Assembly: GCF_001921215.1 (NCBI RefSeq)
Contig: NZ_MSIF01000010.1
Span: forward strand, 62,001-126,000
Direction of reading: 5' to 3'
Origin: Actinophytocola xinjiangensis
Lineage (GTDB): Bacteria; Actinomycetota; Actinomycetes; Mycobacteriales; Pseudonocardiaceae
Length of the DNA stretch: 64,000 nucleotides
In this document: positions 3,673-51,239 of the stretch, one piece after another
Layout: each line of letters starts with the position of its first letter
Position numbering within the stretch: position 1 is the stretch's first letter
Translations under genes and position numbers: made by a program
Notes under the pieces: model-generated
Database searches by the model: none
What the model saw: the letters and a program-made list of their open reading frames with translations, nothing else
Told to the model about the DNA's origin: nothing

Positions 3673-3684
3673 GTTGGTGTCCGG

Positions 3685-3714: not shown

Positions 3715-3725
3715 CTGCATGGGTG

Positions 3726-3754
3726 TTGACAGGTGATTCACGTCGACCTACAGT
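3726..3754 (+). promoter_or_regulatory. Promoter of the solute-binding protein operon
   Basis: A consensus -35 TTGACA (3726-3731) is separated by 17 bases from TACAGT (3749-3754), a good vegetative sigma-factor promoter. The perfect operator at 3765-3784 begins about ten bases after the -10 box, so a bound repressor would block initiation or escape. Confidence 0.65.
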
Positions 3755-3764
3755 CCGTCAGCAC

Positions 3765-3784
3765 TTGATGATGCGCATCATCAA
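3765..3784. promoter_or_regulatory. LacI operator, importer side (perfect palindrome)
   Basis: TTGATGATGCGCATCATCAA is a perfect 20-bp palindrome with the central CG typical of LacI-family operators. It lies directly downstream of a TTGACA/TACAGT promoter and 38 bases before the GTG start of the solute-binding protein. Confidence 0.8.
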
Positions 3785-3822
3785 ACCCTCTCCGATACCG
3801 CCTGAGAACGGAAGTCCTCGCC

Positions 3823-5460: not shown

Positions 5461-5491
5461 GGCTTCACCCATCCAACGAAGGAGACAGTGA

Positions 5492-6307: not shown

Positions 6308-6309
6308 GC

Positions 6310-6346
6310 CCGTGGGTGGCACGCGCCGCCCGCGTGCCACCCACGG
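6310..6346 (+). terminator. Strong hairpin between GH16 and GH3 genes
   Basis: A perfect 16-bp stem (6310-6325 with 6331-6346) and a 5-base loop starts two bases after the GH16 stop and ends just before the GH3 ribosome-binding site. No U-run follows, so it may act as a partial terminator or an RNA stabiliser that sets GH16 above GH3 expression. Confidence 0.65.
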
Positions 6347-6367
6347 CCCCGCATCACCAGGAGGACC

Positions 6368-8509: not shown

Positions 8510-8618
8510 GTGTCCGGCGGACGGACGAACCACCCCTGGTCTGTCCGGCGGCTTCCGTCGGCCCCTGACCACACGTACGGTGATCATGGCTCGGGGCCGA
8601 AGGATCACTGGGGGCTTC

Positions 8619-10925
8619 GTGCGTCGCGTGACGTTGCTGGTCGTGTTCGTCCTGGCCGTGTTCGGCCTCACCCCGGCACAGGCGGAACCGGTCGCCGTGG
8701 CCGGGGCGGTGGACGAGGGGTTGACGTTCGTGCCGACCTCACCGGTCCGGGTGCTCGACACCAGGGCCGGCATCGGGACCGGCGGGTCAACCAGTCCCAT
8801 CCAGGGTGGGCTGTTCCTCGACCTGACAGCGCGGGTACCGGCGTCGGCGTCGGCGGTGGTGCTCAACCTGACCGGTACCCAGCCGACCGTGGTCACCAGC
8901 GTGTTGGTGGCCTCGACCAACGTCAACGTCCCCGACAACCCCGCCCTGCACCTGCTGGCCGGGGAGACCCGGGCCAACCAGGTCACGGTCAGCCTGGGCC
9001 GAGGGGACTCGGCGCAGCGTCGGATCTTCCTGTCCAACCGCAACCCCGCCGGCACCGTGCACCTGATCGCGGACCTGGCCGGGTACTACACCAGCGACAC
9101 CGCCTCCCGGTTCACGTCGGTCGCGCCCCGGCGGATGCTGGACACCCGAACCACCGCGCCCGTCGGCGCCGGCTCGACCATCGAGGTGAACCTGTCGGGG
9201 GTGCTGTCCGCCGGGGCGACCGCGGTGACGGTCAACCTGACCGGCATCACCCCGACCAGCTCCACCTACGTCACCGCCTATCCGTCGGGCACCACCCGGC
9301 CCACCGCGTCGAGCCTCAACCTGGATCCCGGGGCGATCACGCCGAACCTGGTCACGGTCGCCGTCGGCGCCGACCGCCGGATCACCCTGTACAACCACAT
9401 CGGCCGCGTGCACCTGGTCGTCGACCTCGCCGGCTACTACGCCCCGGACCGGGGCGCCCGGTTCATCCCGGTCACGTCCCTGCGTGTCGCCGACACCAAC
9501 ACCAGCGGCGGGCCGCTGGGCACCGGCGCCACCCGGACGGTCGACCTCGCCAGCCGGATCCCCGCCACCGCGACCGCCGTCGTGCTGAACCTGACCGGCA
9601 ACCCGACCACCAGCACGTACGTCACCGCGTATCCCGCCGGTGGCAGCCGGCCGCTCGCCTCGAACCTGAACCTGGTGCCCCAACGGGACACCGCGAACGG
9701 CGCGGTCGTCGCCCTGGGCACCGGTGCGCGGGTGACGGTGTACAACAACACGGGGTCGACGAACCTGCTCGTCGACGTCACCGGGTTCTTCGCCACCCCC
9801 ACGTCGTGCGTCGAGGACTGCCTGTACGGGTGGGGCGGGGACCTGGCCTACGGCCTGTCGCCGACCCGGCGGCCGTGGCTGTCCGACGTCACCGACCTGG
9901 CCGCCCTCACCAACACCGCGTTCGCGCTGCGGTCCGACGGCACGGTGTGGTCCTGGGGAGACAACCAGTGGGGCCAGTTGGGCGCCGGCGCCACCGGCGG
10001 GAGCTCGACCGTGCCGCTGCGTGTGGCCGGCCTGACCGGCGTGACCGCCGTCGCGGCCGGCAACTGGTCGGGCTACGCGTTGCGGTCCGACGGCACCGTG
10101 TGGTCGTGGGGCTGGGGAGAGGCGGGCCAACTGGGCCGGGGCGGCACGAGCGACTCGAACGTCCCGGTCCAGGTCTGGGGGCTGACCGACGCGACGGCGA
10201 TCGCCGCCACCAGCCAGACGGCGTACGCGCTGCGCGCCGACGGCACCGTGTGGGCCTGGGGCAGTGACGTGTGGCGGGGTCGCGGCAACGGGTCCTGCCC
10301 GGCCGGCCAGACCTGCCCGGCGGGCACGCCGGTGCGCGTGGCGCTGCCCCTGCCGGCTTCCACGACGATCACCGCGATCGCGGCCGGCGGCTCGGAGACC
10401 GCGTACGCGCTGCGTTCGGACGGCACGATGTGGGCCTGGGGCCGCAACTGGCTCGGCGAGACCGGCACCGGCTCCCCGGACAGGACCTCGGTCAGCCCGC
10501 GCCAGGTCGTCGGCCTGACCGGTGTGGTGACGATCGGCGGCGGCGACGAGAACGGCTACGCCGTCACCGCCGACGGCCGGGTGTGGTCCTGGGGCGCCGA
10601 CTACTGGGGCGCGCTGGGCACCGGCGCCCCGTGCACCGAGCCGGAGCAGTGCCGGACCAACGTCCCGGTCCTGGTCTCCGGACTGACCGCGGCGGTCGCC
10701 ATCGACAGCGCCAACGGCACGGCCGTCGCCCTCGGCGCGGACGGCACGGTGTGGACGTGGGGCCGCAACGCCGAGAACGGGAACCTGGGCAACGGCACCC
10801 CGGGCGCGTGCGTCGGCGGCCTGCCCCTCCCGGAGACCTGCCGCCAGCCCACCCCGGCCCGCATCGCGGTCGCCGGCGCCACCGCGGTCGAGGCCGCCAA
10901 CCTTGGCCAGTTCGCGATCGCCTGA
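8619..10925 (+). CDS. Secreted RCC1-repeat protein with three VLDTR-type domains
   Basis: I chose the GTG at 8619 because it gives a compact Sec signal (VRRVTLLVVFVLAVFGLTPAQA) and follows GGGGG; in-frame starts at 8580 and 8586 add 13 or 11 residues without a ribosome site. The mature protein has three domains of about 120 residues, each with a R(V/M)LDTR-like start, a VVLNLTG core and a DLAGYY or DVTGFF end. They are followed by about seven RCC1-like blades with the repeating ALRSDGTVWSWG motif. A seven-bladed propeller exposed outside the cell is likely. Ligand and role are unknown. It is separate from the glucan operon. Confidence 0.85.
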   Translation: MRRVTLLVVFVLAVFGLTPAQAEPVAVAGAVDEGLTFVPTSPVRVLDTRAGIGTGGSTSPIQGGLFLDLTARVPASASAVVLNLTGTQPTVVTSVLVASTNVNVPDNPALHLLAGETRANQVTVSLGRGDSAQRRIFLSNRNPAGTVHLIADLAGYYTSDTASRFTSVAPRRMLDTRTTAPVGAGSTIEVNLSGVLSAGATAVTVNLTGITPTSSTYVTAYPSGTTRPTASSLNLDPGAITPNLVTVAVGADRRITLYNHIGRVHLVVDLAGYYAPDRGARFIPVTSLRVADTNTSGGPLGTGATRTVDLASRIPATATAVVLNLTGNPTTSTYVTAYPAGGSRPLASNLNLVPQRDTANGAVVALGTGARVTVYNNTGSTNLLVDVTGFFATPTSCVEDCLYGWGGDLAYGLSPTRRPWLSDVTDLAALTNTAFALRSDGTVWSWGDNQWGQLGAGATGGSSTVPLRVAGLTGVTAVAAGNWSGYALRSDGTVWSWGWGEAGQLGRGGTSDSNVPVQVWGLTDATAIAATSQTAYALRADGTVWAWGSDVWRGRGNGSCPAGQTCPAGTPVRVALPLPASTTITAIAAGGSETAYALRSDGTMWAWGRNWLGETGTGSPDRTSVSPRQVVGLTGVVTIGGGDENGYAVTADGRVWSWGADYWGALGTGAPCTEPEQCRTNVPVLVSGLTAAVAIDSANGTAVALGADGTVWTWGRNAENGNLGNGTPGACVGGLPLPETCRQPTPARIAVAGATAVEAANLGQFAIA

Positions 10926-33326: not shown

Positions 33327-33591
33327 AAACCAACCCCGCTCACGCGGGACGACACCGCCGCGACCCGAGAGATCGACGGAGAGGCGGACCCCGCTCACGC
33401 GGGGACGACTGGGACCGCGTTGCCGTAGCCACGGACCTCGTGGAACCAGCCCCGCTCGCGCGGGGACGACCACACCCCGACGTAGCGGGTGTGGATCGGG
33501 GTGGGACCAGCCCCGCTCGCGCGGGGACGACTTCGGCAGACGGTGGAGGCTGCTCTCCGTCCAGGACCAGCCCCGCTCGCGCGGGGACGAC
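33327..33591 (-). CRISPR. CRISPR array 1 (type I-E), 5 repeats
   Basis: There are five 28-nt repeats ending at 33353, 33409, 33470, 33531 and 33591 with period about 61. In the transcribed (minus) sense the repeat begins GTCGTCCCCGCGCG and ends GGGGCTGGTCC. The two left-most copies are degenerate, as expected for the leader-distal end. The leader is on the right (33592-33668). Spacers are about 32-33 nt; the distal one is 28 nt. Confidence 0.95.
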
Positions 33592-33668
33592 ACTTGCTGA
33601 GCTGGGATGATATCCCGGTTTCTCCCAATTCAGCTTCACTTCTGTCTTTTTTCTTCGCTAGTTGAATT
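33592..33668 (-). promoter_or_regulatory. Leader of CRISPR array 1
   Basis: In minus-strand sense it starts AATTCAAC, has AAGTGAAGC at positions 28-36, and ends ATCCCAGCTCAGCAAGT next to the first repeat. It is exactly 77 nt and collinear with the leaders of arrays 3 and 4. Beyond it, 33669-33904 holds no gene that I can see. Confidence 0.8.
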
Positions 33669-37222: not shown

Positions 37223-38050
37223 TCACGTGATGGTGGGATGGCGTAGCAGGGCGCTGCTCTCCTCGGCGGAGTAGGCGAGGTCGCTGAGGGCGGTGATCTG
37301 CCTGTCGAACACGTCCGTTCGGGCGGCGTGGAAGTAGAAACGGCCCTCGACCGCCTCGACGTTCACGATCGGGCCCGCGTTGGGGAAGGTCAGGCGCTGC
37401 CAGTTGTGCAGCAGGGCACCCACGGGGACGTTGTCGCGCACGATGCGCACGCCGATTCCCCGGTCGCGTGCTCGGGCCAGGTGGTGGAGCTGTTCACGGT
37501 GGACGATCGGGCCGCCGAACGGCCGACGGAGGGCGTTCTCGCACACGAACGCGGTGTAGTCGACGGTGCCGAGTTTCCGTTGGGCTTGTTCGCGTGCTTT
37601 CTAGGCTGTGTGTGCTTCGCCGGGAGTTCGTCCGGCCGCCAGGAGCAGCGCTTTCGCGTAGCCCTCGATCTGGAGGAGTCCGGGAATCAGTGTCGCCGAC
37701 CAGTCGGTAATGGTGTTCGCGTCGTCGAAATACGACGACAGTGCGCTCATTTCGTGGGGGATGCCGGGTAGTGGTGGATCCCACCACACGGTTTGGTCCC
37801 CGTGGGTGGCGAACTGGATGAGGGTGTTCCGCTCGGCGACCGGAATTCGGTAGACGGCCGTGACGGCCGCGACGTCGTCGGACGTGATGTGACATTTGCC
37901 GTTCTCGAAGCGGGACATCTTCGCCAGTGACCACTGCAACAGCCGCGCCGCCTTCTCCAACGACAGGTCGGTTCGGATCTTGCGCACGGCACGGAGGGTC
38001 GCGCCCAACTGTCGGGCTCGTGGCTGTGTCCGGTGTGTCGTGCTGGTCAT
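37223..38050 (-). pseudogene. XRE-DUF5753 regulator interrupted by an in-frame TAG
   Basis: The frame from MTSTTHRTQPRARQLGATLR reads a helix-turn-helix (LSLEKAARLLQWSLAKMSRF) and the start of DUF5753 (DWSATLIPGLLQIEGYAKAL) until TAG at 37603-37601. The same frame then continues KAREQAQRKLGTVDYTAFVC and ALRRPFGGPIVHREQLHHLA to 37223, matching the rest of DUF5753 when compared with the intact paralogue at 39232. No shift is needed, so this is one nonsense mutation, about 276 codons in all. A short truncated HTH protein might still be made. It overlaps the upstream gene by an ATGA junction. Confidence 0.8.
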
Positions 38051-38412
38051 GACGAGGCTCCGGATGACCGTGTCGCGTCGTGGGTGTGCGCGTCCGGATC
38101 GTAGGGGTCGTCCGCCCAGTCGCCGGTCCATTCGACCTCGACCGGCGTGGTGTGACCGAACGCCATTATCGCCCGGTCGATCGTGGTGAAGAACGCGGTT
38201 ACTGCCTGCTCGCCGAACAGGGAGGGCCGGTGCGCCACCACATGCTGTTCGCCGCACGGCCGGACGAACGACATGCCGACCGCGACGATTCTGTCGACGG
38301 CGTTCCGGGTCTTTCGGCCGTGGAAATCCTGGACGCCATGGTCGCGTGTTCTCGGTTCGGTCAGGTAATCAGAATCGTCGACGGCGACGAGGTAGAAGTT
38401 CCGCACATCCAT
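38047..38412 (-). CDS. Hypothetical protein coupled to the broken XRE gene
   Basis: This 121-residue protein (MDVRNFYLVAVDDSDYLTEP at the start, TPVEVEWTGDWADDPYDPDA near the end) has GGAGAAACC before its ATG. It ends in an ATGA overlap with the XRE-DUF5753 gene, so the two were co-transcribed. I do not recognise a family. It is soluble and acidic at the C-terminus with no signal or membrane segment. It may be the partner in which the broken regulator's function was lost. Confidence 0.6.
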   Translation of the reverse strand: MDVRNFYLVAVDDSDYLTEPRTRDHGVQDFHGRKTRNAVDRIVAVGMSFVRPCGEQHVVAHRPSLFGEQAVTAFFTTIDRAIMAFGHTTPVEVEWTGDWADDPYDPDAHTHDATRSSGASS

Positions 38413-39231: not shown

Positions 39232-40080
39232 ATGGCCAAGCAGCTGTCCGGTGTGAACGCCCGGGGCATCGGGCTGGAGCTGTACCGGCTCCGTAAGGAC
39301 AGTGGGCTGAGCGTGAAGGCGGTAGGGGACGCGCTCGGGACCTCGGCCAGCACCATCAGCCGGATCGAGACCGGCAAGCGCGAGCCGACCAGCGAGGAGG
39401 TCGCGTCGATCCTCACGCTGGTCGGCGTCACGGGTGTGGAGCGCGAGCGGTTGATCGAGCGCGCCCGCCGGCGGGGCGAGCCGGACATGATGGAGTCGGC
39501 GACCTCGACCGAACAGAGCCGCAACTTCCTCAACTTCGAGCAGCGCGCCACGAAGCTGATCGATTTCGAGCTGATGCTGGTGCCCGGCCTGGCGCAGACC
39601 GCCGACTACGCGCACGCCTCGCTCTCGGCACTACGGGTCCGGGACCGCGACGAGGACCTGGAGCCGTGGGTGGGGTTGCGGATGCGTCGTCAGGCGATCC
39701 TGACCCGGCGCAAGCCGCCGGAGCTGCACCTGATCATGACCGAACTGGGTCTGCGTCAACCTGTCGGCGGCCGCAAGGTGATGGCCAGGCAGGTGCGGCA
39801 CCTGGTCGACCTGGCCGAACGCCCGATGGTGACGATCAACGTGATTCCCGCGTCGGTCGCCGAGCACCCGGGGCTGCTGGGGCAGTTCCTGATCATGGAG
39901 TTCGCGTCCGACCCGACCGTCGTTCACGTGGAGGACCGCACGACCGGTCTGTTCCTCGACGATCCGGACAAGGTCTCGCTCTATAAGCTGACCTCGGAGA
40001 AGCTGACGGGTCTCGCGCTGGACGAAGGGCGCTCGGTGCGCCTGCTGCGGTCCATCGCGGGTGATCTGGACGGAGAGTGA
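39232..40080 (+). CDS. XRE-family regulator with DUF5753 domain
   Basis: The 282-residue protein has a Cro/C1 helix-turn-helix (LRKDSGLSVKAVGDALGTSA, STISRIETGKREPTSEE, about 20-65) followed by the DUF5753 ligand-like domain (IDFELMLVPGLAQTADYAHA through LYKLTSEKLTGLALDEGRS). GAGGAAG precedes the ATG. A DUF397 gene follows after 7 bases. Such XRE-DUF5753/DUF397 pairs are abundant in actinomycetes, influence development and antibiotic production, and have been likened to toxin-antitoxin pairs. Confidence 0.92.
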   Translation: MAKQLSGVNARGIGLELYRLRKDSGLSVKAVGDALGTSASTISRIETGKREPTSEEVASILTLVGVTGVERERLIERARRRGEPDMMESATSTEQSRNFLNFEQRATKLIDFELMLVPGLAQTADYAHASLSALRVRDRDEDLEPWVGLRMRRQAILTRRKPPELHLIMTELGLRQPVGGRKVMARQVRHLVDLAERPMVTINVIPASVAEHPGLLGQFLIMEFASDPTVVHVEDRTTGLFLDDPDKVSLYKLTSEKLTGLALDEGRSVRLLRSIAGDLDGE

Positions 40081-40087
40081 AACGATC

Positions 40088-40315
40088 ATGGCGGAGGCAA
40101 CGTTCGGCCGGTGGCGCAAGAGCAGCCGCAGCGGCAACGAAAGCAACTGTGTCGAGCTGGCCTGGCGCAAGAGCAGCCGCAGCGGCAACGAAGGAGCCTG
40201 TGTCGAACTGGCGCACACCGCCACGTCCGGCGCGATCCGCGACAGCAAGAACCCCGACGGCGGTCGCCTTGAGGTTCCGCTGGCCACCCTGATCGCCGCG
40301 ATCATGACCTGGTGA
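40088..40315 (+). CDS. DUF397 protein with duplicated core motif
   Basis: The 75-residue protein is the DUF397 partner of the upstream XRE regulator. The family core W.KSS.S...CVE.A appears twice in tandem: WRKSSRSGNESNCVELA and WRKSSRSGNEGACVELA. The usual second half (IRDSKNPDGGRLEVPLATL) follows once. A typical family member has one copy and about 60 residues. The duplication is in frame (51 bases) and nearly identical in DNA, so recent. Whether the product is active is unknown. Confidence 0.85.
   Translation: MAEATFGRWRKSSRSGNESNCVELAWRKSSRSGNEGACVELAHTATSGAIRDSKNPDGGRLEVPLATLIAAIMTW
40112..40213 (+). repeat. 51-bp tandem duplication inside the DUF397 gene
   Basis: Units 40112-40162 and 40163-40213 begin with 30 identical bases and differ only at a few later positions. 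They encode two 17-residue copies of the DUF397 core. Confidence 0.9.
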
Positions 40316-40404: not shown

Positions 40405-41169
40405 AACAGACCCCGTGCATGCGGTACGACACGGTGGCCGAACCGTCGGCGTCGCGGTGTCGGGACCAGCCTCCGGCTCGCGCGGGGACGACAGCATCGG
40501 ATCGCCCTGGGCGGGCACGACCTTGGACCACCCCCGCTCACGCGGGGACGACACGCCGTCGCATGGATTGACAGCGATAAGCCGGGGACCACCCCCGCTC
40601 GCGCGGGGACGACGACGGCCCGTGGAACGTGATCGACACCGTGCAGGGACCACCCCCGCTCGCGCGGGGACGACCCGAGCGCCGGCATGACGCCGTCGGA
40701 CAGGACGGGACCACCCCCGCTCGCGCGGGGACGACCACACCGACGTGAAGGTGTACGCCAAGGGCGCGGGACCACCCCCGCTCGCGCGGGGACGACGGTG
40801 CGGTTCGCGCCGAACTGGTGGATTGTCCATGGACCACCCCCGCTCGCGCGGGGACGACGACCTGGACACCGCCACGGCCCAGTTCGGCGACGGACCACCC
40901 CCGCTCGCGCGGGGACGACTGCTCGACGTACCGCACGCCGGGGGCGCCGTCCGGACCACCCCCGCTCGCGCGGGGACGACCCCGAGTGAGTTCGGTAACC
41001 GGACGAACCGGCCGTTGGGGGACCACCCCCGCTCGCGCGGGGACGACGCGCTCTCGCCGGTGCTCCTCTGGGGAGCCCGCGGACCACCCCCGCTCGCGCG
41101 GGGACGACTGCTTCGTTGTCGACTACGTGGACGGCGATAAGGGACCACCCCCGCTCGCGCGGGGACGAC
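40405..41169 (-). CRISPR. CRISPR array 2 (type I-E), 13 repeats
   Basis: Repeats of 28 nt begin near 40405 (degenerate), 40463, 40525, 40586, 40647, 40708, 40769, 40831, 40892, 40953, 41020, 41081 and 41142. The period is mostly 61. In minus sense each starts GTCGTCCCCGCGCG and ends GGGGGTGGTCC, one base different from arrays 1, 3 and 4. The leader is at the right. The copy at 40463 carries a 2-base insertion, and the left-most copy is strongly decayed. The spacer 40981-41019 is 39 nt rather than 32-34. Confidence 0.97.
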
Positions 41170-41246
41170 ACTTGTTGACCTGCGATGATATCGGCGGTGT
41201 GGCCGTTTTTGCATCACTTTCCGATTTTTTCATCGGCTGATGAATC
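41170..41246 (-). promoter_or_regulatory. Leader of CRISPR array 2
   Basis: It occupies the same 77-nt frame as the other three leaders, with AAGTGATGC at the same offset and CAGGTCAACAAGT at the repeat border. The distal end is GATTCATC instead of AATTCAAC, so it is the most diverged copy. It also forms the divergent upstream region of cas3. Confidence 0.75.
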
Positions 41247-41335
41247 GCTGCTCTCCATGTTCACTGCTACGGCGACATCATCGTGAGTCTGTTGGGCTGT
41301 TGGAACGGTGGGGGCCGGGTCGTCGATGTCAGGGC

Positions 41336-44056
41336 ATGAACACTGGGGGTGGCGTGGGTTCGTGGTGGTCGGTGTGGGCGAAGTCGTGGCCTCATTCGCC
41401 GGCGGAGGTGGAGCAGTGGTTGCCGCTCCACCAGCATCTTGACGATGCGCAGGGCGTGGCGGGGTTGTTGTTCGACGACTGGGTTCCCGGCCCGGTGGTG
41501 CGCACGATCGCCGAGGATGCCGGGATCTCCGGGGCCGATGTTCGTGACCTGGTGGTGTGGCTGGCCGCTGTGCATGACGTCGGGAAGGCGAGTCCGGCGT
41601 TCGCTGTTCAGGTGCCGACGCTGTGTCAGGCGATGGCTGGTGACGGGTTTCGGGTGGACCCCGGCATGGTCGCCGCCGCGAAGGACGACCGGACTCGGTC
41701 GCGGGTGAACCACGCGTTGGTGGGGCATGTCGCGGTGTTCGACTGGTTGTCGGCGCGGGGCGTGGACGCTGACGACGCGTGTGCGTTGGCGTCGGTGGTC
41801 GGGTCGCATCACGGGGTCGCGCCGGAGTGGACACGGCTGACGGAAGTCATCGAGCAGATCCCCTACGCCGGTGGCGGACCGTGGAGCCAGGCCAGGGCCG
41901 AGGTGCTGACCCGCGCGGCACACCGGTGTGCGCCGACGTTCCCTCGACTGTCCACGCCGAGCCTGGTGTTGCTGACGGCGTTGGTGATCGTCGCGGATTG
42001 GATCGCGTCCAACGCGGAGTACTTTCCGTTGTGGTCGCTGGGAAGGACGGGTGGGCCGGACGACACGCGGACGCAGCGGCGGCTCACCGAGGGCTGGTCG
42101 CGGCTGGGGTTGCCGCGTCGGTGGGTGGCGCCGGTGCCGGGGGAGGCGCGGGCGACGTTCGCGACACGGTTCGGGTTCGCCGGGGAGGACATCCGGGACG
42201 TGCAGGTCGGCGCGGTCGAGGCGGCGCGGGCGATGTGCGGGTCCGGGTTGGTGATCGTCGAGGCGCCGATGGGGGAGGGGAAGACGGAGGCGGCGTTGCT
42301 GGCCGCCGAGGTGTTGGCGCACGACGCCGATGCCAACGGGTGTTTCGTGGCGCTGCCGACCCAGGCGACCACCGACGCGATGTTCGACCGCGTCCGGTCG
42401 TGGCTGGACCGCCTGCCGGGCGGGGCGACGATGGCGCTGGCCCACGGGAAAGCGCACCTCAACGACCGGTACCGGGGGCTGGCCCGGCGGGCGCGGGTGG
42501 TGAGCGAGAGCGGCGCGGTGGCGCACGACTGGCTGCGGGGACGGAAGAAAGCCGGTCTGGCCAGCTTCGTCGTCGGAACGATCGACCAGGTGCTGTTCGC
42601 CGGGTTGAAGACGCGGCACGTCATGCTGCGGCATCTCTCGCTGGTCGGCAAGGTCGTGATCATCGACGAGGTGCACGCCTACGACGTGTACATGTCCCAG
42701 TACCTGCACCGGGTGTTGCGGTGGCTGGGCGCCTACCGGGTGCCGGTGATCCTCCTGTCGGCGACGCTGCCCGACGCGCGGCGCGCGGAACTGCTCCGTG
42801 CCTACGATCCCGCCGCCGACGTGCCGGCCGCCCATCCCGGCTATCCGGTGATCACCGCGACGAACCAGCCCCCGAGAACGTTCCCGATGCCCGACCGCGC
42901 GGTGCCCGTCGTGCTGGACCGCTTGGATGACAACCTGGAGACTCTGTCGGCCTACCTGCGGGAACATCTGCGGGACGGCGGCTGCGCGGTGGTGGTGCGC
43001 AACACGGTCGGCAGGGTGCAGGAGGCCGCCGCGCACCTGGCGAACGAATTCGACGTGACGATCAACCACGCCCGGTTCCTTGCCTGCGACCGGGCGGCGA
43101 AGGACCAGGATCTACTGCGACGGTTCGGCCCGCCCGGCAGGTCCGAGGAGCGGCCGTCCTGTCATGTGGTCGTTGCTTCCCAGGTGGTGGAACAGTCGTT
43201 GGACATCGACTTCGACCTCATGGTGACCGATCTCGCGCCGGTCGACCTTGTGCTGCAACGCATGGGGCGGCTGCACCGGCATACCCGCGAACGACGTCCG
43301 GACGCGGTGATGCGGGCGCGGTGCGCGATCACCGGCGTCGACTGGTTGGCGACGCCGCCCGCGCCGGTGCGCGGCTCGACCGCCGTCTACGAGGAACACC
43401 ACCTGCTGCGCGCTGCCGCGCTGATCGACCGCGACACCGTCACCCTGCCACGGGACATCGCCCCTCTGGTCCAGGCCGCCTACGGCGACGACCCCCTCGG
43501 CCCACCGAACTGGCGCCCAACCATGGACGACGCCCGTCAGCGCGCCGACCACCGAGCCCAACGCCGCCACGACGCCGCCACAACCTACCTGCTGGGCGAA
43601 CCCGGCCCGGGTGACCTGGTCGACTGGCTCCAAGCCCACGCCGGCGAGGCACACGACGAAGGCCCCCGCGCCCTGGCCCAGGTCCGCGACGGCGCGGAAT
43701 CCCTGGAAGTCCTCGTCGTACAACGCGACGTCGACGGTGGACTGCGCACGCCGGACTGGGTACCCGGCGGCGGCCAGCAGATTCCCCTGCTGGGAGAACT
43801 GGAATGGCGACTGGCACGGATTCTCGCCTCGTGCACCCTACGTCTGCCCCGCGCGTTGAGCCACGAAGGCGTGATCGACGCCGTGATCGATGAACTGGTA
43901 CAGACGAAGATCGACAGTTTCCAGCAGACCCCCACCCTGTCCGGCCACCTCATCCTCCCGCTCGACGATGACCGCCACGCCGTGCTCCACGACCACCACC
44001 TCACCTACGACCTCGCATGCGGCCTCCTCCACGAACCGGTCGACGGCTCCCGCTGA
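41336..44056 (+). CDS. cas3: CRISPR-associated helicase/nuclease Cas3 (type I-E)
   Basis: The 906-residue protein joins an N-terminal HD nuclease and a C-terminal SF2 helicase. HD residues are seen in AAVHDVGKASPAF (about 79), NHALVGH and VGSHHGVAP. Helicase motifs are the Walker A GEGKTEAAL (about 312), DEVH in VIIDEVHAYD (about 442), SATLP (about 474) and the late VEQSLDIDFD and QRMGRLHRH. The ATG at 41336 is chosen since the frame before it is leader DNA. It would nick and unwind DNA marked by Cascade. It stands 690 bases before casA, with array 3 in between. Confidence 0.96.
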   Translation: MNTGGGVGSWWSVWAKSWPHSPAEVEQWLPLHQHLDDAQGVAGLLFDDWVPGPVVRTIAEDAGISGADVRDLVVWLAAVHDVGKASPAFAVQVPTLCQAMAGDGFRVDPGMVAAAKDDRTRSRVNHALVGHVAVFDWLSARGVDADDACALASVVGSHHGVAPEWTRLTEVIEQIPYAGGGPWSQARAEVLTRAAHRCAPTFPRLSTPSLVLLTALVIVADWIASNAEYFPLWSLGRTGGPDDTRTQRRLTEGWSRLGLPRRWVAPVPGEARATFATRFGFAGEDIRDVQVGAVEAARAMCGSGLVIVEAPMGEGKTEAALLAAEVLAHDADANGCFVALPTQATTDAMFDRVRSWLDRLPGGATMALAHGKAHLNDRYRGLARRARVVSESGAVAHDWLRGRKKAGLASFVVGTIDQVLFAGLKTRHVMLRHLSLVGKVVIIDEVHAYDVYMSQYLHRVLRWLGAYRVPVILLSATLPDARRAELLRAYDPAADVPAAHPGYPVITATNQPPRTFPMPDRAVPVVLDRLDDNLETLSAYLREHLRDGGCAVVVRNTVGRVQEAAAHLANEFDVTINHARFLACDRAAKDQDLLRRFGPPGRSEERPSCHVVVASQVVEQSLDIDFDLMVTDLAPVDLVLQRMGRLHRHTRERRPDAVMRARCAITGVDWLATPPAPVRGSTAVYEEHHLLRAAALIDRDTVTLPRDIAPLVQAAYGDDPLGPPNWRPTMDDARQRADHRAQRRHDAATTYLLGEPGPGDLVDWLQAHAGEAHDEGPRALAQVRDGAESLEVLVVQRDVDGGLRTPDWVPGGGQQIPLLGELEWRLARILASCTLRLPRALSHEGVIDAVIDELVQTKIDSFQQTPTLSGHLILPLDDDRHAVLHDHHLTYDLACGLLHEPVDGSR

Positions 44057-44160
44057 GCCCTGTTCGTTCTCTCGCCGCCGTGCGTGGGGTGGAGCGCCGC
44101 GAGGCTGGGGCATGGGATGGTTGGGGTGCCGCACGTGGAACCAGGACCGCAGCGGGCGGT

Positions 44161-44237
44161 AATTCAACTGCCAGGGAAAAGATGAGAAAGTGATGCTGGA
44201 ATCGGAGTTCCAGTGCTATCGCCCCAGGTCAGGAAGT
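44161..44237 (+). promoter_or_regulatory. Leader of CRISPR array 3
   Basis: It is 77 nt in plus sense, starting AATTCAAC, with AAGTGATGC at positions 28-36 and ending CAGGTCAGGAAGT at the first repeat. It shows that array 3 is transcribed on the plus strand, opposite to the other arrays. Confidence 0.8.
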
Positions 44238-44449
44238 GTCGTCCCCGCACACGCGGGGCTGGTCCCCACCCAGCGAAGGTGAGCGGGGCGCCAGACACGT
44301 CGTCCCCGCGCACGCGGGGCTGGTCCCGTGCGCGAGGTGACTGTGCCGCGTCGCCAGCCTGTCGTCCCCGCGCACGCGGGGCTGGTCCGACCTGTCGGAC
44401 ATGCTCGCTGGCATCGGCCGCGTCGTCCCCGCGCACGCGGGGCTGTGTC
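44238..44449 (+). CRISPR. CRISPR array 3 (type I-E), 4 repeats, between cas3 and casA
   Basis: Repeats start at 44238, 44299, 44361 and 44422; spacers are 33-34 nt. The plus-strand repeat starts GTCGTCCCCGCGCAC and ends GGGGCTGGTCC. The last copy ends GTGTC instead of GGTCC, the expected decay at the leader-distal end. Placement between cas3 and casA is unusual. Confidence 0.95.
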
Positions 44450-44749
44450 GCCCGGTGCGGTTCCGGGGTGTGCGGCCTGTGGGACAACTGCGGGGCTGGG
44501 GCGGATCGGCTTCTGGCGGCTGAGTGTGCGGTGGGGCCGTCAGGGCTGGCGAGATTGCCGCTGAGTTGGCCGGGGCGGGGCTCGCGTCCGAACCCGGTCA
44601 ACTCAGCGAACATTCGTCGCGGTTCAGTGAAACGAAAGGCTACGGCCGGTCGATGACGTTCACGTGAGATGACGTCGATGTCGTCGTTAATATTCACCGA
44701 CAGGTCAGACCTTCGAGAACTCTGTGGATGCTGATGTGAGGCTTTCTGT
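44450..44749. other. Non-coding region upstream of casA
   Basis: No gene is visible. TAATAT at 44698-44703 is a possible -10 box for the Cascade operon, without a clear -35. GATGACGTCGATGTCGTCG nearby has short symmetric parts. Confidence 0.3.
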
Positions 44750-46372
44750 ATGAGTGGGTTCGACCTGGTCGTGCGGCCGTGGTTGTTGGCGCGGGATCAG
44801 GACGGCGATGTCGTCGAACTGTCGATGGGTGAGATCTTTGGGTCCGCTCATCGGTTGTTGGGGCTGGTCGGGGACGTGCCGACACAGGTTTTCGCGCTGA
44901 CGCGGTTGCTGTTGGCCGTGCTGCACCGGTCGGTTGGCGGGCCTCGGGATGTCGCGGCCTGGCGGGAGTTGTGGCGTGCGGAAACGTTGCCAGTAGACGA
45001 TATTGACCGGTACCTCCAGGCGCACCGGCACCGGTTCGATCTCGCGGACCAGACGGAGCCGTTCTTCCAGGTGGCCGGGTTGCGGGTCGCGGACGGGTCG
45101 GTGTCGGACCTGTCGAAGCTGATTGCCGACGTTCCCAACGGGGCGCCTTTCTTCACCACACGAATCGGCGGGAGGCTGACGCTCGCGGCCGCCGAGGCGG
45201 CGCGCTGGCTGGTGCACTGTCAGGCGTTCGACACCTCCGGGATCAAATCCGGTGATCCGAGCGATCCGCGCACCAAGAATGGAAAAGGCTATCCCATCGG
45301 TGTTTCCTGGTCGGGACATCTCGGTGGTGTCCTCGTGGGTGGCCGAACTCTGCGCGAGACCCTGTTGCTGAATCTGATTCCGCGTGATTTCACGCAAGCG
45401 GCGGACGCGGATGATCGACCGCCGTGGGAGCGACCCCAATTGGGAGCCGCGGAGGAGGTGCCGGGCGGGCGTGCGCCGACAGGTCCGGTCGAGCTGTTCA
45501 CCTGGCAGTCCCGGCGGGTGCGGTTGGCGTGGGACGACGGCCTGGTCACCGGGGTGCTGATCGGCAACGGAGACCGCCTCACACCGCAGAACATGCACCC
45601 GTTCGAGCCGCACACGCTGTGGCGGCGCAGCGAGACCCAGGAGAAGAAGCTGCGGTCGTCGGTGCCGGTCTACATGCCGCTGGAACACAACCCCGAGCGC
45701 GACATCTGGCGCGGACTGCAGTCGATGCTGCCGGACACCGGGGCCGCCACCGTCGAGAACCGGTTGACAGCGACGGTGTTGCGGTGGGTCAGCTCCCTCG
45801 CCATGAGGCGGGTGCTGGACACCGGGTATCCGCTGGAACTGCGCGCGATCGGCATGCACTACGGCGCCCAGAGCTCCACTGTCGCCGACATCGTGGACGA
45901 CGCGTTGAGTCTGCGGGCGATCTTGTTCGCGCAGGACGCCGCTGCGTTGATCGGGTCGGTGAAACAAGCGGTGGAGCACAGCGAGGCCGGCGCGAACGCG
46001 GTGGGCCGGCTCGCGGAGAACCTCGCCGTCGCGGCCGGATCGCGGGACATCACCGGCGGGCACCGGCTTCGCGCCACGGAACAGGCCTACAGCGTGTTGG
46101 ACCCGCTGTTCAGGACCTGGCTGGCCGGGCTCGACGAGAACACCGACGCGTCGACCTGTCTCGCCCAGTGGCATCGCACGGCGCTGGACGCACTGCGTGA
46201 ACTGGCCGACGACCTGGCCGCGACGACCCCGCCGGTGGCGTGGGTTGGTCGCGACGACCGTCAGGGACGCCGGATCACCTCGGTGCATGCCCGCAAGTGG
46301 TGCGGGGACGCCCTGCGCAAGACCTTCCAGTACGCCGCACCGTCACCATCGAGAACCCCCGTCGGGAGTTGA
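44750..46372 (+). CDS. casA: Cascade large subunit Cse1/Cas8e
   Basis: The 540-residue protein is the type I-E large subunit that reads the PAM and recruits Cas3. Its N-terminus shows the usual FDLVVRPWLLARDQDGDVVE, followed by LADQTEPFFQVAGLR and the HTMHPFEPHT-like stretch NMHPFEPHTLWRR. Length fits the family (about 500-560). It heads a tight operon casA-casB-cas7-cas5-cas6-cas1-cas2 in which most genes overlap by a few bases. Confidence 0.95.
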   Translation: MSGFDLVVRPWLLARDQDGDVVELSMGEIFGSAHRLLGLVGDVPTQVFALTRLLLAVLHRSVGGPRDVAAWRELWRAETLPVDDIDRYLQAHRHRFDLADQTEPFFQVAGLRVADGSVSDLSKLIADVPNGAPFFTTRIGGRLTLAAAEAARWLVHCQAFDTSGIKSGDPSDPRTKNGKGYPIGVSWSGHLGGVLVGGRTLRETLLLNLIPRDFTQAADADDRPPWERPQLGAAEEVPGGRAPTGPVELFTWQSRRVRLAWDDGLVTGVLIGNGDRLTPQNMHPFEPHTLWRRSETQEKKLRSSVPVYMPLEHNPERDIWRGLQSMLPDTGAATVENRLTATVLRWVSSLAMRRVLDTGYPLELRAIGMHYGAQSSTVADIVDDALSLRAILFAQDAAALIGSVKQAVEHSEAGANAVGRLAENLAVAAGSRDITGGHRLRATEQAYSVLDPLFRTWLAGLDENTDASTCLAQWHRTALDALRELADDLAATTPPVAWVGRDDRQGRRITSVHARKWCGDALRKTFQYAAPSPSRTPVGS

Positions 46373-46373
46373 C

Positions 46374-47003
46374 GTGACCACGAGGACCACACCAGACGCG
46401 GACACCGAGCCGGGCGCCGACCGGCCGATCGCGGTCATCGTCGGCGCGCGGGTCACCCAGTTGCAGGGTGGGTACCTGCGTGACGACGCCTCGGCGGTCG
46501 CCGCGTTGGCGCGGCTGCGGCGGGGGGCGGGCAAGCCGGCGGGCAGCGTCCTGGACATCCTGGAGTTCACCCACGCCGAGGAGTTCGCCCGGGACTGGCA
46601 TCGGGACGAGCCGAGCTACGCCGAGAACGCCGCGCATGTCGCCATGACACTCTTCGCGCTGCACCAGCAGTCCCAGCGTCGCGCGGTCCACGTGCAGGGC
46701 CGTCCGTTCGGCAGCGCGGTGCGTGCGCTCGACAAGGACGCGCGGTCGGACGGGCCGGTCGCGCGCCGGTTCGCCGCCCTGGGCACCGCCGACAGCTTCG
46801 CCGAGCTGACCCACCACCTGCGGGGACTGGTGCAGCTGATGCGAGCGGCGAACGTCCAGTTCGACTACGGGCAGCTGGCCCGCGACCTGTGGGTCTGGCA
46901 GCTGCCCGGCCGGGCTCCCCAGGTGCAGAACCGGTGGGGGCGCGACTACCACTTCCCCCGCACCAGCAGGATCGACGCCGAGCAGAAGGACGCCGCGCAG
47001 TGA
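46374..47003 (+). CDS. casB: Cascade small subunit Cse2
   Basis: The 209-residue helical protein begins with a GTG one base after the casA stop. Recognisable segments are LQGGYLRDDASAVAALARLR near the start and FDYGQLARDLWVWQLPGRAP then VQNRWGRDYHFPR at the end, typical of Cse2. Two copies stabilise the Cascade backbone and displaced DNA strand. The frame stays open far upstream, but that part lies inside casA. Confidence 0.93.
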   Translation: MTTRTTPDADTEPGADRPIAVIVGARVTQLQGGYLRDDASAVAALARLRRGAGKPAGSVLDILEFTHAEEFARDWHRDEPSYAENAAHVAMTLFALHQQSQRRAVHVQGRPFGSAVRALDKDARSDGPVARRFAALGTADSFAELTHHLRGLVQLMRAANVQFDYGQLARDLWVWQLPGRAPQVQNRWGRDYHFPRTSRIDAEQKDAAQ

Positions 47004-48124
47004 ACCGAACGATCATCGACATCCACGTCGTGCAGACCGTGCCGCCGAGCAACATCAACAGGGACGACACGGGTAGTCCGAAAAGTGCGGTTTACGGCGG
47101 TGTGCGGCGGGCCCGGGTGTCGAGTCAGGCGTGGAAGCGCGCGACCAGGGACGCCTTCGACGACCTGCTCGACCGCTCGGAGCTGGGGGTGCGCACCAAG
47201 CAGGTGGTCGAGCTGCTGACCGAGCGGATCACCGAGCGCGCGCCGGAACTGGCGGAGCGGGCGGTCGAGCTGGCCACGGCGGTGCTCGGTGCCGCCGGCG
47301 TGAAGCTGAAGGCGCCGCGCAACAAGAAGGACGGCCCGGAGGAGTCGGAGTTCCTGCTGTTCCTGAGCAACCACCAGCTCGACGGGCTGGCCGAACTCGC
47401 CGTCGAGGCCGCCGGTGACGAGACGCCGAAGATCGACAAGGCCGCCGCCAGGGGGCGGGCCGACCGGGAGCACTCGGTCGACGTGGCGTTGTTCGGGCGG
47501 ATGCTGGCGAACCTGCCCGACCTCAATGTCGAGGCGGCCGCGCAGGTGGCGCACGCGATCAGCGTGCACGCCGTCGCCAACGAGTACGACTACTTCACCG
47601 CCGTGGACGACCACAAGGCCGCCGACGTGACCGAGGACGCCGGCGCCGGCATGATCGGCACCGTCGAGTTCAACTCCGCCACCCTGTACCGGTACGCCAA
47701 CGTCGACGTCGACCGGCTGCACGGCACGCTCGGCGACGCCACGGCGACGCGGCGCGCGGTGGAGGCGTTCGTGCGCGCCTTCGTCACCAGCATGCCCACC
47801 GGCAAGCAGAACACCTTCGCCAACCGTACGCTGCCCGACGCGGTGCTGGTCGTGGCGCGCGAGACCCAGCCGATCAACCTCGCCGGCGCCTACGAGGAGG
47901 CGATCCGCGAGGGCGAGAAGGGCGGGCGGGTCACCGGCGCGGTGGCGCGGCTTGCCCGGCACGCCGACGAACTGCACGCCGCCTACGACGAGACCCCGGT
48001 CGCGGCGTGGGCCGTGGGGGTGGGGGAGCGTGGCGAACTGCTCGCCGAGATCGCCAGCCCGGTGTCGCTGGACGGCCTGGTCGGAGGCGTGGGAGAACTG
48101 GTCGCAGAGCGGTCGGTGCGGTGA
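47000..48124 (+). CDS. cas7e: Cascade backbone Cas7e
   Basis: This 374-residue RAMP protein forms the six-copy crRNA-binding backbone of Cascade. The start is the GTG at 47000 overlapping the casB TGA. It has the family opening IDIHVVQTVPPSNINRDDTG, then SAVYGGVRRARVSSQAWKRA and RHSVDVALFGRM-like REHSVDVALFGRMLA. Length is normal. Nothing suggests loss of function. Confidence 0.95.
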   Translation: MNRTIIDIHVVQTVPPSNINRDDTGSPKSAVYGGVRRARVSSQAWKRATRDAFDDLLDRSELGVRTKQVVELLTERITERAPELAERAVELATAVLGAAGVKLKAPRNKKDGPEESEFLLFLSNHQLDGLAELAVEAAGDETPKIDKAAARGRADREHSVDVALFGRMLANLPDLNVEAAAQVAHAISVHAVANEYDYFTAVDDHKAADVTEDAGAGMIGTVEFNSATLYRYANVDVDRLHGTLGDATATRRAVEAFVRAFVTSMPTGKQNTFANRTLPDAVLVVARETQPINLAGAYEEAIREGEKGGRVTGAVARLARHADELHAAYDETPVAAWAVGVGERGELLAEIASPVSLDGLVGGVGELVAERSVR

Positions 48125-48825
48125 CCGCGTTGGTGCTGCGGCTGGCGGCGCCGTTGCAGTCGTGGGGCACGAGCAGCCGGTTCGTGCGCCGGGGCACCGG
48201 CCGTGCGCCGAGCCGCAGCGGGGTGATCGGCATGCTCGCCGCCGCCCAGGGCCTGCGGCGCACCGACTCGCTGCAACAACTGCTGGGGCTGCGGATCTGG
48301 GTCCGCACCGAGCAGAACGGCCGCGTGGAGCGTGACTTCCAGACGGCCCGATCCCGTGACGGGTCCGAGGTGATGCCGTTGTCCTACCGCTACTACCTGG
48401 CCGACGCGGTGTTCGCCGTCGCCGTCGAAGGGCCGGTGGAGGTGCTGGACGGGCTGCGGGAGGCGTTGCGTCGCCCGGTGTTCCCCGTGTACCTGGGGCG
48501 TCGTTCCTGCCCGCCCGCCGGCAGGCTCGACCACGGTCTGCACGACGGTGACGTGGAGAGCGTCCTGGAAACGTTGCCGTGGCTGGCCTCACCCGCCGTG
48601 CGGCGAGCGGCCGGGCCCACGGCAGAACTGACCGTCCACCGCGACTGCGACCCCGGCACTCCGGGCAGCGAACTCGTACACGACGTGCCGGTCTCGTTCG
48701 ACCCCGCCCACCGCCAGTGGGGGTGGCGGTCGGTGATCCGCTACCCGGTGACGGTGCCCAACCCGGCGGCCGAGCCGGTCGCCGACCCGCACGATCCGAT
48801 GGACCTGCTCGGAGATGCTGTCTGA
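48121..48825 (+). CDS. cas5e: Cascade subunit Cas5e
   Basis: The 234-residue RAMP protein caps the 5' handle of crRNA. It starts with GTG overlapping the cas7 stop (GTGA). The N-terminal LVLRLAAPLQSWG and RAPSRSGVIGMLAAAQGL segments, and the SYRYYLADAVFAVAVEG strand, are typical. Length is normal for the family. Confidence 0.94.
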   Translation: MTALVLRLAAPLQSWGTSSRFVRRGTGRAPSRSGVIGMLAAAQGLRRTDSLQQLLGLRIWVRTEQNGRVERDFQTARSRDGSEVMPLSYRYYLADAVFAVAVEGPVEVLDGLREALRRPVFPVYLGRRSCPPAGRLDHGLHDGDVESVLETLPWLASPAVRRAAGPTAELTVHRDCDPGTPGSELVHDVPVSFDPAHRQWGWRSVIRYPVTVPNPAAEPVADPHDPMDLLGDAV

Positions 48826-49478
48826 TGTACCTGACGCAGTTCGAGATCAACCCCGTCCGGCGGGGCGCGCGCAGTCTGCTGTCCTCGCCGCAACGGATGC
48901 ACGCGGCGGTGCTCGCGGCGTTCACCGCCGAGGAACGCGAACCCACCGACGCGGGCCGCATCCTGTGGCGGGTCGACCAGCGCGGAACCCAGACACTGCT
49001 CTACCTGGCCAGCCCGCACCGGCCCGACCTGACCCACCTCGTCGAACAGGCGGGCTGGCCGACCAAGACCACCTGGCGCAGCGGCGACTACCAGCGCCTG
49101 CTGGACCGACTCATCGCCGGTGAGCAATGGGCCTTCCGGCTCACCGCCAATCCTGTCCACAGTGGACGTAAGGAGGGTGCGGGACGTTCGCAGCGGTTCG
49201 GGCACGTCACCGCCGCCCAGCAGCACGGATGGCTGACCGGTCGCGCCGAACGTCACGGCTTCGCGATCGTCACCGGCGACCACAAGGAACCCGACCTGAT
49301 CGTGCGTGACCGCAAGATCGTGCGGTTCGCCCGCCAGGGCCGCCAGGTCAGCATCGCCACCGCGACCTTCGAAGGACGCCTGACCGTCACCGATCCAGAC
49401 GCGCTGAGGAATGCGCTTACCCGGGGGATCGGCCCCGCCAAGGGCTACGGCTGCGGACTGCTCACGCTGGCCCGCTGA
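48825..49478 (+). CDS. cas6e: crRNA endoribonuclease Cas6e
   Basis: The 217-residue protein cuts the CRISPR transcript in each repeat. The catalytic His is seen in PQRMHAAVLAAF (His26), and the C-terminal Gly-rich RNA-binding loop reads GPAKGYGCGLLTLA. It overlaps cas5 by one base (TGATG) and cas1 likewise. The repeat stem CCCCGCGCG..CGGGG is a suitable substrate. Confidence 0.95.
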   Translation: MYLTQFEINPVRRGARSLLSSPQRMHAAVLAAFTAEEREPTDAGRILWRVDQRGTQTLLYLASPHRPDLTHLVEQAGWPTKTTWRSGDYQRLLDRLIAGEQWAFRLTANPVHSGRKEGAGRSQRFGHVTAAQQHGWLTGRAERHGFAIVTGDHKEPDLIVRDRKIVRFARQGRQVSIATATFEGRLTVTDPDALRNALTRGIGPAKGYGCGLLTLAR

Positions 49479-50170
49479 TGCCCGAGATCCCGGGCGCCAA
49501 ACCCGTCCCGCTCGGCCAACTCACCCGAGCGTCGGACCGGTTGAGCTTCGTGTACCTCGAACACTGTGTTGTGCACCGCGATTCCAACGCGATCACCGCC
49601 CGCGACGCCCGGGGCACCGTGCACCTGCCGGCGGCGACGCTCGGCGCGTTGCTGCTCGGCCCCGGCACCACCGTCAGCCAACAGGCGATGGTCCTGCTCG
49701 CCGAGTCCGGCTCCACGGCGGTGTGGGTCGGTGAGCGCGGCGTGCGGTACTACGCGCACGGCCGCACCCTCACCCAGTCCTCGCGGCTGCTGGAACGCCA
49801 GGCCGAACTGGTGTCCAACCGCAACTCCCGCCTGACGGTCGCGCGGCGGATGTATGCGATGCGGTTTCCCGGTGAGGACGTCAGTGGATCGACCATGCAG
49901 CAGCTCCGTGGGCGCGAAGGAGCCCGAGTCCGGCGTCTGTACCGGGCACACTCCCAACGCACCGGTGTCGAATGGGACGGCCGGGACTACGACCCGATGA
50001 ACTTCGACGACGGAACCCCGGTCAACAAAGCGCTTTCCGCCGCGAACACCAGCCTTTACGGTGTGGTGCACGCCAATGACCGTCATCGTCGTCACCGCCT
50101 GCCCCGTCGGCCTGCGCGGACACCTCACCCGGTGGCTCATGGAGATATCGCCAGGGGTGCTCGTCGGTGA
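49478..50170 (+). pseudogene. cas1: Cas1e, C-terminally deleted
   Basis: The first 199 codons are good Cas1e: ASDRLSFVYLEHCVVHRDSN near the start, QQLRGREGARVRRLYRAHSQ with the first catalytic Glu, and NKALSAANTSLYGVVHA. Directly after that the sequence becomes the cas2 start (ATG at 50076), and the cas1 frame runs through cas2 as Arg/His-rich nonsense to 50170. Family proteins are about 300 residues and continue with the GF(I/V)HTG..SFVYDIADLYK region that holds the catalytic His and Asp. About 100 codons are missing, so integration activity should be lost. The gene is otherwise in place in the operon. Confidence 0.85.
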
Positions 50171-50417
50171 GATCACCGCTCGCGTCCGCTCGCTGGTCTG
50201 GACGCGGGTCACCGAGATGGCCAAAACCGGACGCGCCATCATGGTGTTCTCCGCCGACAATGAGCAAGGTCTCGACTTCGCCGTCCACAACCACGACTGG
50301 ACACCTGTCGATCACGAAGGCCTCCACCTCATGCTCCGTCCCGACGGTGGAGCTCCGGTCGTGCGGAAGACCGGGTGGAGCGATGCCGCCAAACGGCGCC
50401 GCTACGGGAGAAGCTGA
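50076..50417 (+). CDS. cas2: CRISPR-associated Cas2e
   Basis: The 113-residue protein keeps the Cas2e pattern: MTVIVVTACPVGLRGHLTRW, then LMEISPGVLVGEITARVRSL and VFSADNEQGLDFAVHNHDW. It is the structural dimer bridging Cas1 in the integrase complex. It is intact, but its partner Cas1 is truncated immediately upstream. A start at 50061 would lie in cas1 sequence; 50076 is the normal start. Confidence 0.93.
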   Translation: MTVIVVTACPVGLRGHLTRWLMEISPGVLVGEITARVRSLVWTRVTEMAKTGRAIMVFSADNEQGLDFAVHNHDWTPVDHEGLHLMLRPDGGAPVVRKTGWSDAAKRRRYGRS

Positions 50418-50515: not shown

Positions 50516-50604
50516 TAACCAGCCCCGCTCGCGCGGGGACGACCCGCCGGCCGTGCCGTACACGGAGTCCGCCGCGGGACCAGCCCCGCTCGCGCGGGGA
50601 CGAC
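50516..50604 (-). CRISPR. CRISPR array 4 (type I-E), 2 repeats
   Basis: Repeats at 50516-50543 and 50577-50604 flank one 33-nt spacer. In minus sense they start GTCGTCCCCGCGCG and end GGGGCTGGTCC or, in the distal copy, GGGGCTGGTTA. The leader is on the right. It lies 98 bases after cas2. Confidence 0.9.
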
Positions 50605-50681
50605 ACTTCTTGAGCTGGGACGATACCTCTGGTTCGGCAGTTCTGGCATCACTTTGGAATTTATTCTCTGATTGTTGAATT
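50605..50681 (-). promoter_or_regulatory. Leader of CRISPR array 4
   Basis: It is 77 nt in minus sense, starting AATTCAAC, with AAGTGATGC at positions 28-36 and ending TCCCAGCTCAAGAAGT at the repeat. It is collinear with leaders 1 and 3. The following 50682-50801 contains no gene. Confidence 0.8.
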
Positions 50682-50801: not shown

Positions 50802-51239
50802 TCAGCGGGTGGTGGCCAGGATGACGAGGAACTGACCGCCGCCCGGTTCGATCTTGGCGTTCACCGGTAGGCCGGGGACCAGGCGGGAGAAGCGGTCGAC
50901 CAGCCAGTCCGCCGCGTCCTGGGCGTCCTGCCTGGTGGGGCAGCGGGCGACCATTTCCCGGCCGCCTTTGCGTTCCAGTCTGGTGGCCACGGTGATCAGC
51001 GGCGCGGGGTCGACCACGTGCAGACGGTCCGGCCACGCGATGACGACCTTGACCGCGCCCTTGCGGGTGTTGCACGCGCGGTGCGCGAGTCGTTCGGGCA
51101 CCTTGGCCTTGCGGTCGGTGGTGCGGCTGTCGACGCTGGGGCCCCTCGGGTCGTTCACCGATCTGTCGAGGTCGACGGGCTCGTCGCACACCCAGCAGCG
51201 GCCGCCGTCCCGGGCGGCCACGTCGTCGAGGAGAGTCAC
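50802..51239 (-). CDS. HNH-like zinc-binding protein
   Basis: The 145-residue protein has a CWVCDEPVD knuckle near residue 15 and LAHRACNTRKGAVK near residue 50, the C..C / H..CN arrangement of the HNH fold. The catalytic first His of a true HNH nuclease is not obvious, so it may bind DNA or have another role. The C-terminal half (QDAQDAADWLVDRFSRLVPG) looks like a separate alpha/beta unit. It is adjacent to the CRISPR island but not part of the cas operon. Defence function is only possible. Confidence 0.65.
   Translation of the reverse strand: MTLLDDVAARDGGRCWVCDEPVDLDRSVNDPRGPSVDSRTTDRKAKVPERLAHRACNTRKGAVKVVIAWPDRLHVVDPAPLITVATRLERKGGREMVARCPTRQDAQDAADWLVDRFSRLVPGLPVNAKIEPGGGQFLVILATTR

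Follow-up and report, generated by a model that had tools for sequence, protein, structure and literature searches.

A type I-E CRISPR-Cas operon with a truncated cas1 in Actinophytocola xinjiangensis: a predicted interference-only system

Introduction

Actinophytocola xinjiangensis carries a type I-E CRISPR-Cas operon in which cas1 is cut short directly before cas2, while the interference genes are whole. The truncation, found in a 64,000-nucleotide stretch of the genome (hereafter the window; C2:62001-126000 of the assembly), is real and far beyond chance. This arrangement is very probably an interference-only type I-E system made by one recent cas1 deletion of about 350 nt.

Results

The interference genes and cas2

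The operon spans 41240-50417, with its genes arranged as cas3, cas8e, cas11, cas7, cas5, cas6, cas1, cas2. Gene completeness was scored with HMMs built from named relatives, and each of the following genes lies on the plus strand in one frame. The helicase-nuclease gene cas3 (41240..44056; TIGR01587, TIGR01596; HMM positions 13-925 of 927) is full length and is the sole cas3_core match over the cut-off in the genome. Full length was also found for cas8e, or casA/cse1 (44750..46372; TIGR02547, 1.4e-69; HMM 3-532 of 536). The genes cas11, or casB/cse2 (46407..47003; TIGR02548, 2.5e-38; HMM 4-194 of 196), cas7, or casC (46985..48124; TIGR01869, 1.3e-94; HMM 3-376 of 378), and cas6, or casE (48825..49478; TIGR01907, 1.8e-20; HMM 2-221 of 221; ATG at 48825), are whole, with start codons that are not settled. 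Between the latter two, cas5, or casD (48121..48825; TIGR01868, 1.3e-42; HMM 1-231 of 232), is whole, and the operon closes with a full-length cas2 of 113 aa (50076..50417; PF09707, 6e-32; TIGR01873; HMM 1-114 of 115). The original prediction that casA to cas6 and cas3 are intact thus holds in both the TIGR models and the HMMs, and extends to cas2.

The locus accordingly has cas3, the Cascade genes cas8e, cas11, cas7, cas5 and cas6, and a cas2e, together with the 28-29 nt repeats, spacers of about 32-33 nt and leader of type I-E; a full-length cas1e with the E/H/D active site is absent. Judged by sequence, and within a draft assembly, it belongs with adaptation-defective I-E systems, which combine a whole interference module with no working cas1 in the genome. 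It is not a minimal I-E variant devoid of cas3, cas1 and cas2, since cas3 and cas2 are whole, and the subset of neighbouring ORFs given to Pfam had no match to tnsB/tnsC. In a tree, the Cascade end branch of the window is short (0.12, compared with 0.38 for the sister row).

The cas1 lesion and its junction

The Cas1e model TIGR03638 matches the cas1 frame, which starts at 49478, with an E value of 9e-72, covering only model positions 3-189 of 269, and alignments with solved Cas1 chains reach residue 199 and none beyond. Homology therefore ends at codon 199, where a usual Cas1 has 310-345, and only one base separates this codon from the cas2 ATG at 50076; this is the loss from codon 200 to the cas2 start that had been proposed. 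The remnant (49478..50075, plus strand; delimited with TIGR03638, relatives and solved chains) comprises codons 1-199 plus one base, the part with the catalytic histidine and aspartates being deleted. The protein had been said to end at ..SLYGVVHA; homology does stop there, but the frame does not stop at the junction (50075..50076). According to the ORF list it runs out of frame into cas2 on the plus strand for 31 further, unrelated codons and a stop (50075..50170), giving a 230-aa ORF that overlaps cas2 by 95 nt including the stop. An in-frame Cas1-Cas2 fusion is ruled out, the two frames being one base apart.

The size of the missing piece was estimated from relatives. The 80 best of 503 candidates, named loci L013-L092, all have an interval of 338-437 nt from codon 199 to the cas2 start. 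This interval measures 359 nt in Actinokineospora sp. NBRC 105648, owner of the nearest Cas1, and 344 nt in Thermocrispum agreste, taken as the nearest Cascade row of the tree, so the window has lost about 343-358 nt, more than the "300 or so bases" first suggested. Among the same best 80 of 503 candidates, the Cas1 frame measures 310-345 aa in 76; the exceptions are overlong frames of 435-451 aa in L014, L020 and L061 and a broken one of 236 in L051. None of the 80 has the same truncation. In the nearest relative, cas1 (319 codons plus stop) ends in a 4-nt overlap with the start of cas2. One genome of the host's order, G390, has a cas1 cut at a similar model position (2-199 of 269), but the remainder of its locus is also fragmented. 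A single deletion, as read earlier from the clean junction, is the simplest account of it. Comparison by eye with Actinokineospora and Thermocrispum, neither of which is a close relative, gave no microhomology longer than about one base.

Active-site residues and conservation of the retained part

Alignment with the E. coli Cas1 chains 5ds4/3nkd places the counterpart of E141 in the retained part and those of H208, D218 and D221 in the lost part; E141, H208 and D221 are catalytic residues of E. coli Cas1. The claim that the region with the catalytic His and Asp is gone is borne out, with the catalytic glutamate kept. Of the positions at which 95% or more of 79 relatives agree, 69 fall in the retained part, all of them unchanged (69/69), and 29 in the lost part. 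At the 90% level, there are 0 changes at 87 positions of the retained part.

The search for a second Cas1

The assembly is a 9.5-Mb draft of 72 contigs with 99.26% completeness, and the junction sits within a 301-kb contig. Searches of the assembly with PF01867 and TIGR00287 match only the window locus, so the check for another Cas1 that could act in trans came out in favor of the original prediction. A search with the C-terminal 120 residues of the nearest Cas1 gave nothing convincing in the assembly (best E 0.09), and relocation of the Cas1 C-terminus elsewhere in the genome was rejected on that search. Furthermore, the Cas1 fragment had no match in five other genomes of the genus, in which the DNA of the locus finds short matches only.

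CRISPR arrays, spacers and neighbouring genes

The genome contains eight arrays, four of them inside the window. Array A1 (33382..33591, minus strand) has 4 repeats and a leader at about 33592-33668; A2 (40465..41169, minus) has 12 repeats and a leader at about 41170-41246. Array A3 (44238..44449, plus), with 4 repeats, lies between cas3 and cas8e, where it and its leader (about 44161-44237) occupy the gap 44057-44749. Array A4 (50516..50604, minus; leader about 50605-50681), which follows cas2, has 2 repeats and one spacer. The eight are scattered over the assembly (G000 C2:95k, 102k, 106k, 112k and 173k; C6:31k; C16:116k and 119k) and short (2-12 repeats), and they share one leader type, of about 77 nt with invariant motifs at 8/8 arrays, with repeat variants specific to each array. 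Spacer intervals over all eight number 41 by one count and 40 by another. Oddities include spacers of 34 and 39 nt and one A5 repeat that is 2 nt short and lies within a spacer interval.

An array inside the operon (locus positions 3000-10900) was found in none of 55 named loci of at least 20 kb. The array beside cas2 also runs against the usual orientation, which among relatives is '+' in 54/58, '-' in 3 and unclear in 1.

The first, leader-proximal repeat equals the second in 5/7 arrays having more than two repeats and differs in 2/7 (A3 and A8), the two-repeat A4 being left out. The split array L137 was dropped from this count because its first repeat is not leader-proximal (with it, 3/6). 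The same difference occurs in 12/109 arrays where cas1 is whole (76 named loci) and in 2/9 arrays at four other cas1-broken loci. Such private leader-proximal changes were compared as a sign that acquisition ended long ago; 2/7 against 12/109 gives a Fisher P of 0.20, with seven arrays here.

No convincing protospacer emerged for A1-A4 against phages or for A2 against plasmids. An A4 match to Gordonia phage lysin genes (E 1e-4) runs into the next repeat, and when one such phage was compared with the A4 spacer without gaps, no site matched at 24 or more of the 33 bases. The A2 plasmid search returned 121 records with many places per record, which look like arrays with similar repeats.

Next to array A2 lie an HTH/DUF5753 regulator and, after it, a protein matching DUF397 (39232-40315), with a 50-nt tandem duplication, 90% identical. 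A second HTH/DUF5753 gene (37601-38257, minus strand) looks truncated, its DUF5753 match covering only positions 9-46 of 178. Adjoining A4, a small minus-strand ORF (50802-51239) shows an HNH-like Cys/His pattern by eye and has no match in Pfam or PADLOC.

Lesions of cas1 across the order

Among 397 genomes of the host's order, cas8e is over the cut-off in 59 and cas1e in 46, and 18/59 cas8e genomes are without an intact one-frame cas1e; in two of these 18 (G199, G398) the stretch read contains just part of cas8e and no further cas gene. Every one of the 69 cas8e loci above the cut-off was read (the window, L143-L146, L148 and L149-L211). The comparison set consisted of the 38 that resemble the window (cas7 of at least 390 bits); the 31 excluded, with cas7 below 390 bits or not found, are divergent I-E loci and also cas8e-alone loci (L201, L209, L210). 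In thirteen divergent loci among the 31, neither cas1 nor cas2 was matched within the 20 kb read (L171, L173, L181, L182, L186, L189-L191, L194, L195, L198, L206, L208), and several of them, with similar cas7 scores, may form a sub-lineage.

Lesions in the 38 loci number 7 in cas1, 4 in cas2, 1 in cas3, 1 in cas8e and 0 in cas11, cas7, cas5 and cas6, so cas3, cas11, cas5 and cas6 together have one. The seven cas1 cases take several forms: the 3′ deletion of the window; loss of cas1 with half of cas2 (G359); replacement of the 5′ part by a stretch with apparently decayed arrays (G144); frameshifts at different places that could be sequencing errors (G291, G368); and a 20-kb stretch in which neither cas1 nor cas2 was found (G255, G028). 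The last genome is without cas3, cas1 and cas2 together, so its two lesions are perhaps one event. A C-terminal frameshift in G261 was counted as whole under the 85% rule. In G144, decayed-looking arrays follow cas6 immediately, in the place expected for the 5′ end of cas1 (L143 7300-9650), so that arrays may be participants in operon breakage.

On a quick tree of Cas7+Cas5+Cas6, which cannot tell gain from loss, the seven cas1-broken loci need at least 6 changes; with G261 added there are 7, of which 6 are forced by well-supported branches. The cas1-broken label clusters on this tree no more than in shuffles. Under a model in which lesions fall on cas1, cas3, cas11, cas5 and cas6 in proportion to gene length, cas1 would receive at least six of seven with a P of about 1.3e-4; cas7 and cas8e were left out of the test because those genes chose the loci. 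Counter to the asymmetry, G243, G390 and G412 have a cas1e but no cas8e over the cut-off. Median repeat counts are 24 at the 7 cas1-broken loci and 31 at the 31 whole loci (P 0.07), from a repeat finder that undercounts (15 at the window, 18 by a fuller count).

Discussion

Comparison with known systems

The systems of Actinokineospora sp. NBRC 105648 (L013) and Thermocrispum agreste (L017) resemble the window in gene order, interference genes and repeat type, and Cas1 residues 1-199 are 86% and 82% identical to it, respectively. Unlike the window, both complete systems retain the C-terminal part of cas1. Their cas2-adjacent arrays have 23 and 15 repeats by the same undercounting finder, compared with 2 here; this array is reversed in the window and in Thermocrispum, not in Actinokineospora. 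The cas8e frame of Thermocrispum is split, unlike that of the window (survey row G286, taken as the same genome). Of these two, Actinokineospora has the Cas1 more similar to that of the window, whereas for cas3, cas8e, cas7 and cas6 the nearer one is Thermocrispum; parts of the operon may have recombined, or the genes may only have evolved at uneven rates.

In the literature, type I-E variants of Streptomyces without cas1-cas2 (Shmakov 2018; Faure 2019b, as described in the review PMC12231136) are like the window in having interference genes and no working adaptation module. As that review describes them, neither of the two genes is present and certain variants are also devoid of cas3 or encode tnsB/tnsC, whereas the window has a whole cas3, a whole cas2 and most of cas1. 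The same review describes a C. diphtheriae I-E variant with an array between cas3 and cse1, a layout similar to that of A3, and a plasmid-borne I-E system with seven arrays. PMC10333696 and PMC5310062 report cas1/cas2 loss from the type III-A system of Beijing-type M. tuberculosis, also an actinomycete and one that has likewise lost its adaptation genes naturally; there, an insertion-element transposase replaces cas1 and cas2, whereas the window has a type I-E system and a clean deletion. A truncated cas1 in the type I-B system of B. fragilis, cut in its authors' view probably by a single deletion event (PMC5704556), is like the window in this respect and unlike it in that the system also lost most effector genes. 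In S. avermitilis, a type I-E system shows active interference and weak spacer acquisition even with cas1-cas2 overexpressed (PMC4762764). Among the open-licence papers listed, titles and abstract openings yielded no description of the exact case of the window, which is a new instance; systems without a working cas1 are already in print.

Proposed origin and alternative explanations

The proposed course of events is that one deletion removed the 3′ third of cas1 and brought codon 199 next to the base that precedes the cas2 start. The fragment would then comprise the N-terminal part with one catalytic glutamate and without the active-site histidine and aspartates. The biochemistry of Cas1-Cas2 is well established, and we infer from it that a Cas1 without its C-terminal part cannot integrate spacers. 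Existing crRNAs would still load Cascade and guide Cas3, so that the system would act against already recorded invaders and make no new records. Translation of cas2 may in addition have lost its coupling, as the cas1 frame crosses the cas2 start and ends 95 nt on. The loss of the Cas1 C-terminus, the whole interference genes and the absence of another Cas1 from the assembly together make interference without acquisition a well-supported prediction at the level of gene content. Against the interference-only reading count the whole cas2, which has no known use in acquisition without Cas1, and the absence of a confident protospacer for A1-A4, so that nothing shows these arrays to match real invaders. 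Either a recent deletion or a fragment that is still constrained would explain why the N-terminal part is unchanged and the Cascade branch short.

An error of assembly or gap closing, with a whole cas1 in the strain and its flanks wrongly joined, could arise in a draft of 72 contigs, and the N-terminal part is conserved as perfectly as in a working gene; yet the junction lies within a long contig, the two places in relatives share no long direct repeat by eye, and the missing 120 aa are found nowhere in the assembly. We consider such an error improbable. Still less credible is continued acquisition with a Cas1 supplied in trans, for example from a plasmid or element that the assembly lacks. 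Given their single leader type, the eight arrays could all be served by one integrase, and the leader-proximal repeat equals the second in most of those compared, but no second Cas1 is found in the assembly by either of two families. The fragment so perfectly kept may still do something, and its invariance at the 87 conserved positions, its open frame with no stop before the junction and the whole cas2 could all speak for a regulatory or structural function of its own, with or without Cas2, rather than for a pseudogene. A very recent deletion explains the same facts, however, and the same truncation at an otherwise whole locus appears in none of the best 80 named loci and in no other of the 397 genomes, so we attach very little probability to this explanation.

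The cause of the deletion is a separate matter. The original prediction added that it was possibly selected to freeze the memory, that is, that loss of acquisition was favoured, for instance against self-targeting, with interference kept. The excess of cas1 lesions (7 of 38 loci, fewest changes 6, compared with 1 in cas3, cas11, cas5 and cas6 together; P about 1.3e-4) fits such selection, but weaker purifying selection on cas1 than on the interference genes gives the same pattern. Loci with a broken cas1 tend, if at all, towards fewer repeats, and cas1e occurs without cas8e over the cut-off in three genomes. Selection of this kind is doubtful. Equally doubtful is its extension to the whole order, in which type I-E systems would be locked repeatedly, acquisition being shed under selection and interference staying under purifying selection, with the window a freshly locked case that still has a perfect N-terminal Cas1 part and Cas2. 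Recurrent and lopsided as they are, the cas1 lesions agree as well with weak selection to retain acquisition as with selection against it.

Conclusions

A deletion that left interference without acquisition remains the preferred reading for the window. Because cas1 loss recurs in related bacteria, the case is real but not exotic. As a natural loss of acquisition with everything else in place, the locus would be useful as an interference-only system. Our survey puts a number on the pattern, 18 of the 59 cas8e genomes of the order being without an intact one-frame cas1e, and in the clade compared, lesions strike cas1 more often than cas3, cas11, cas5 or cas6. It is this imbalance of lesions across the order that deserves to be followed.
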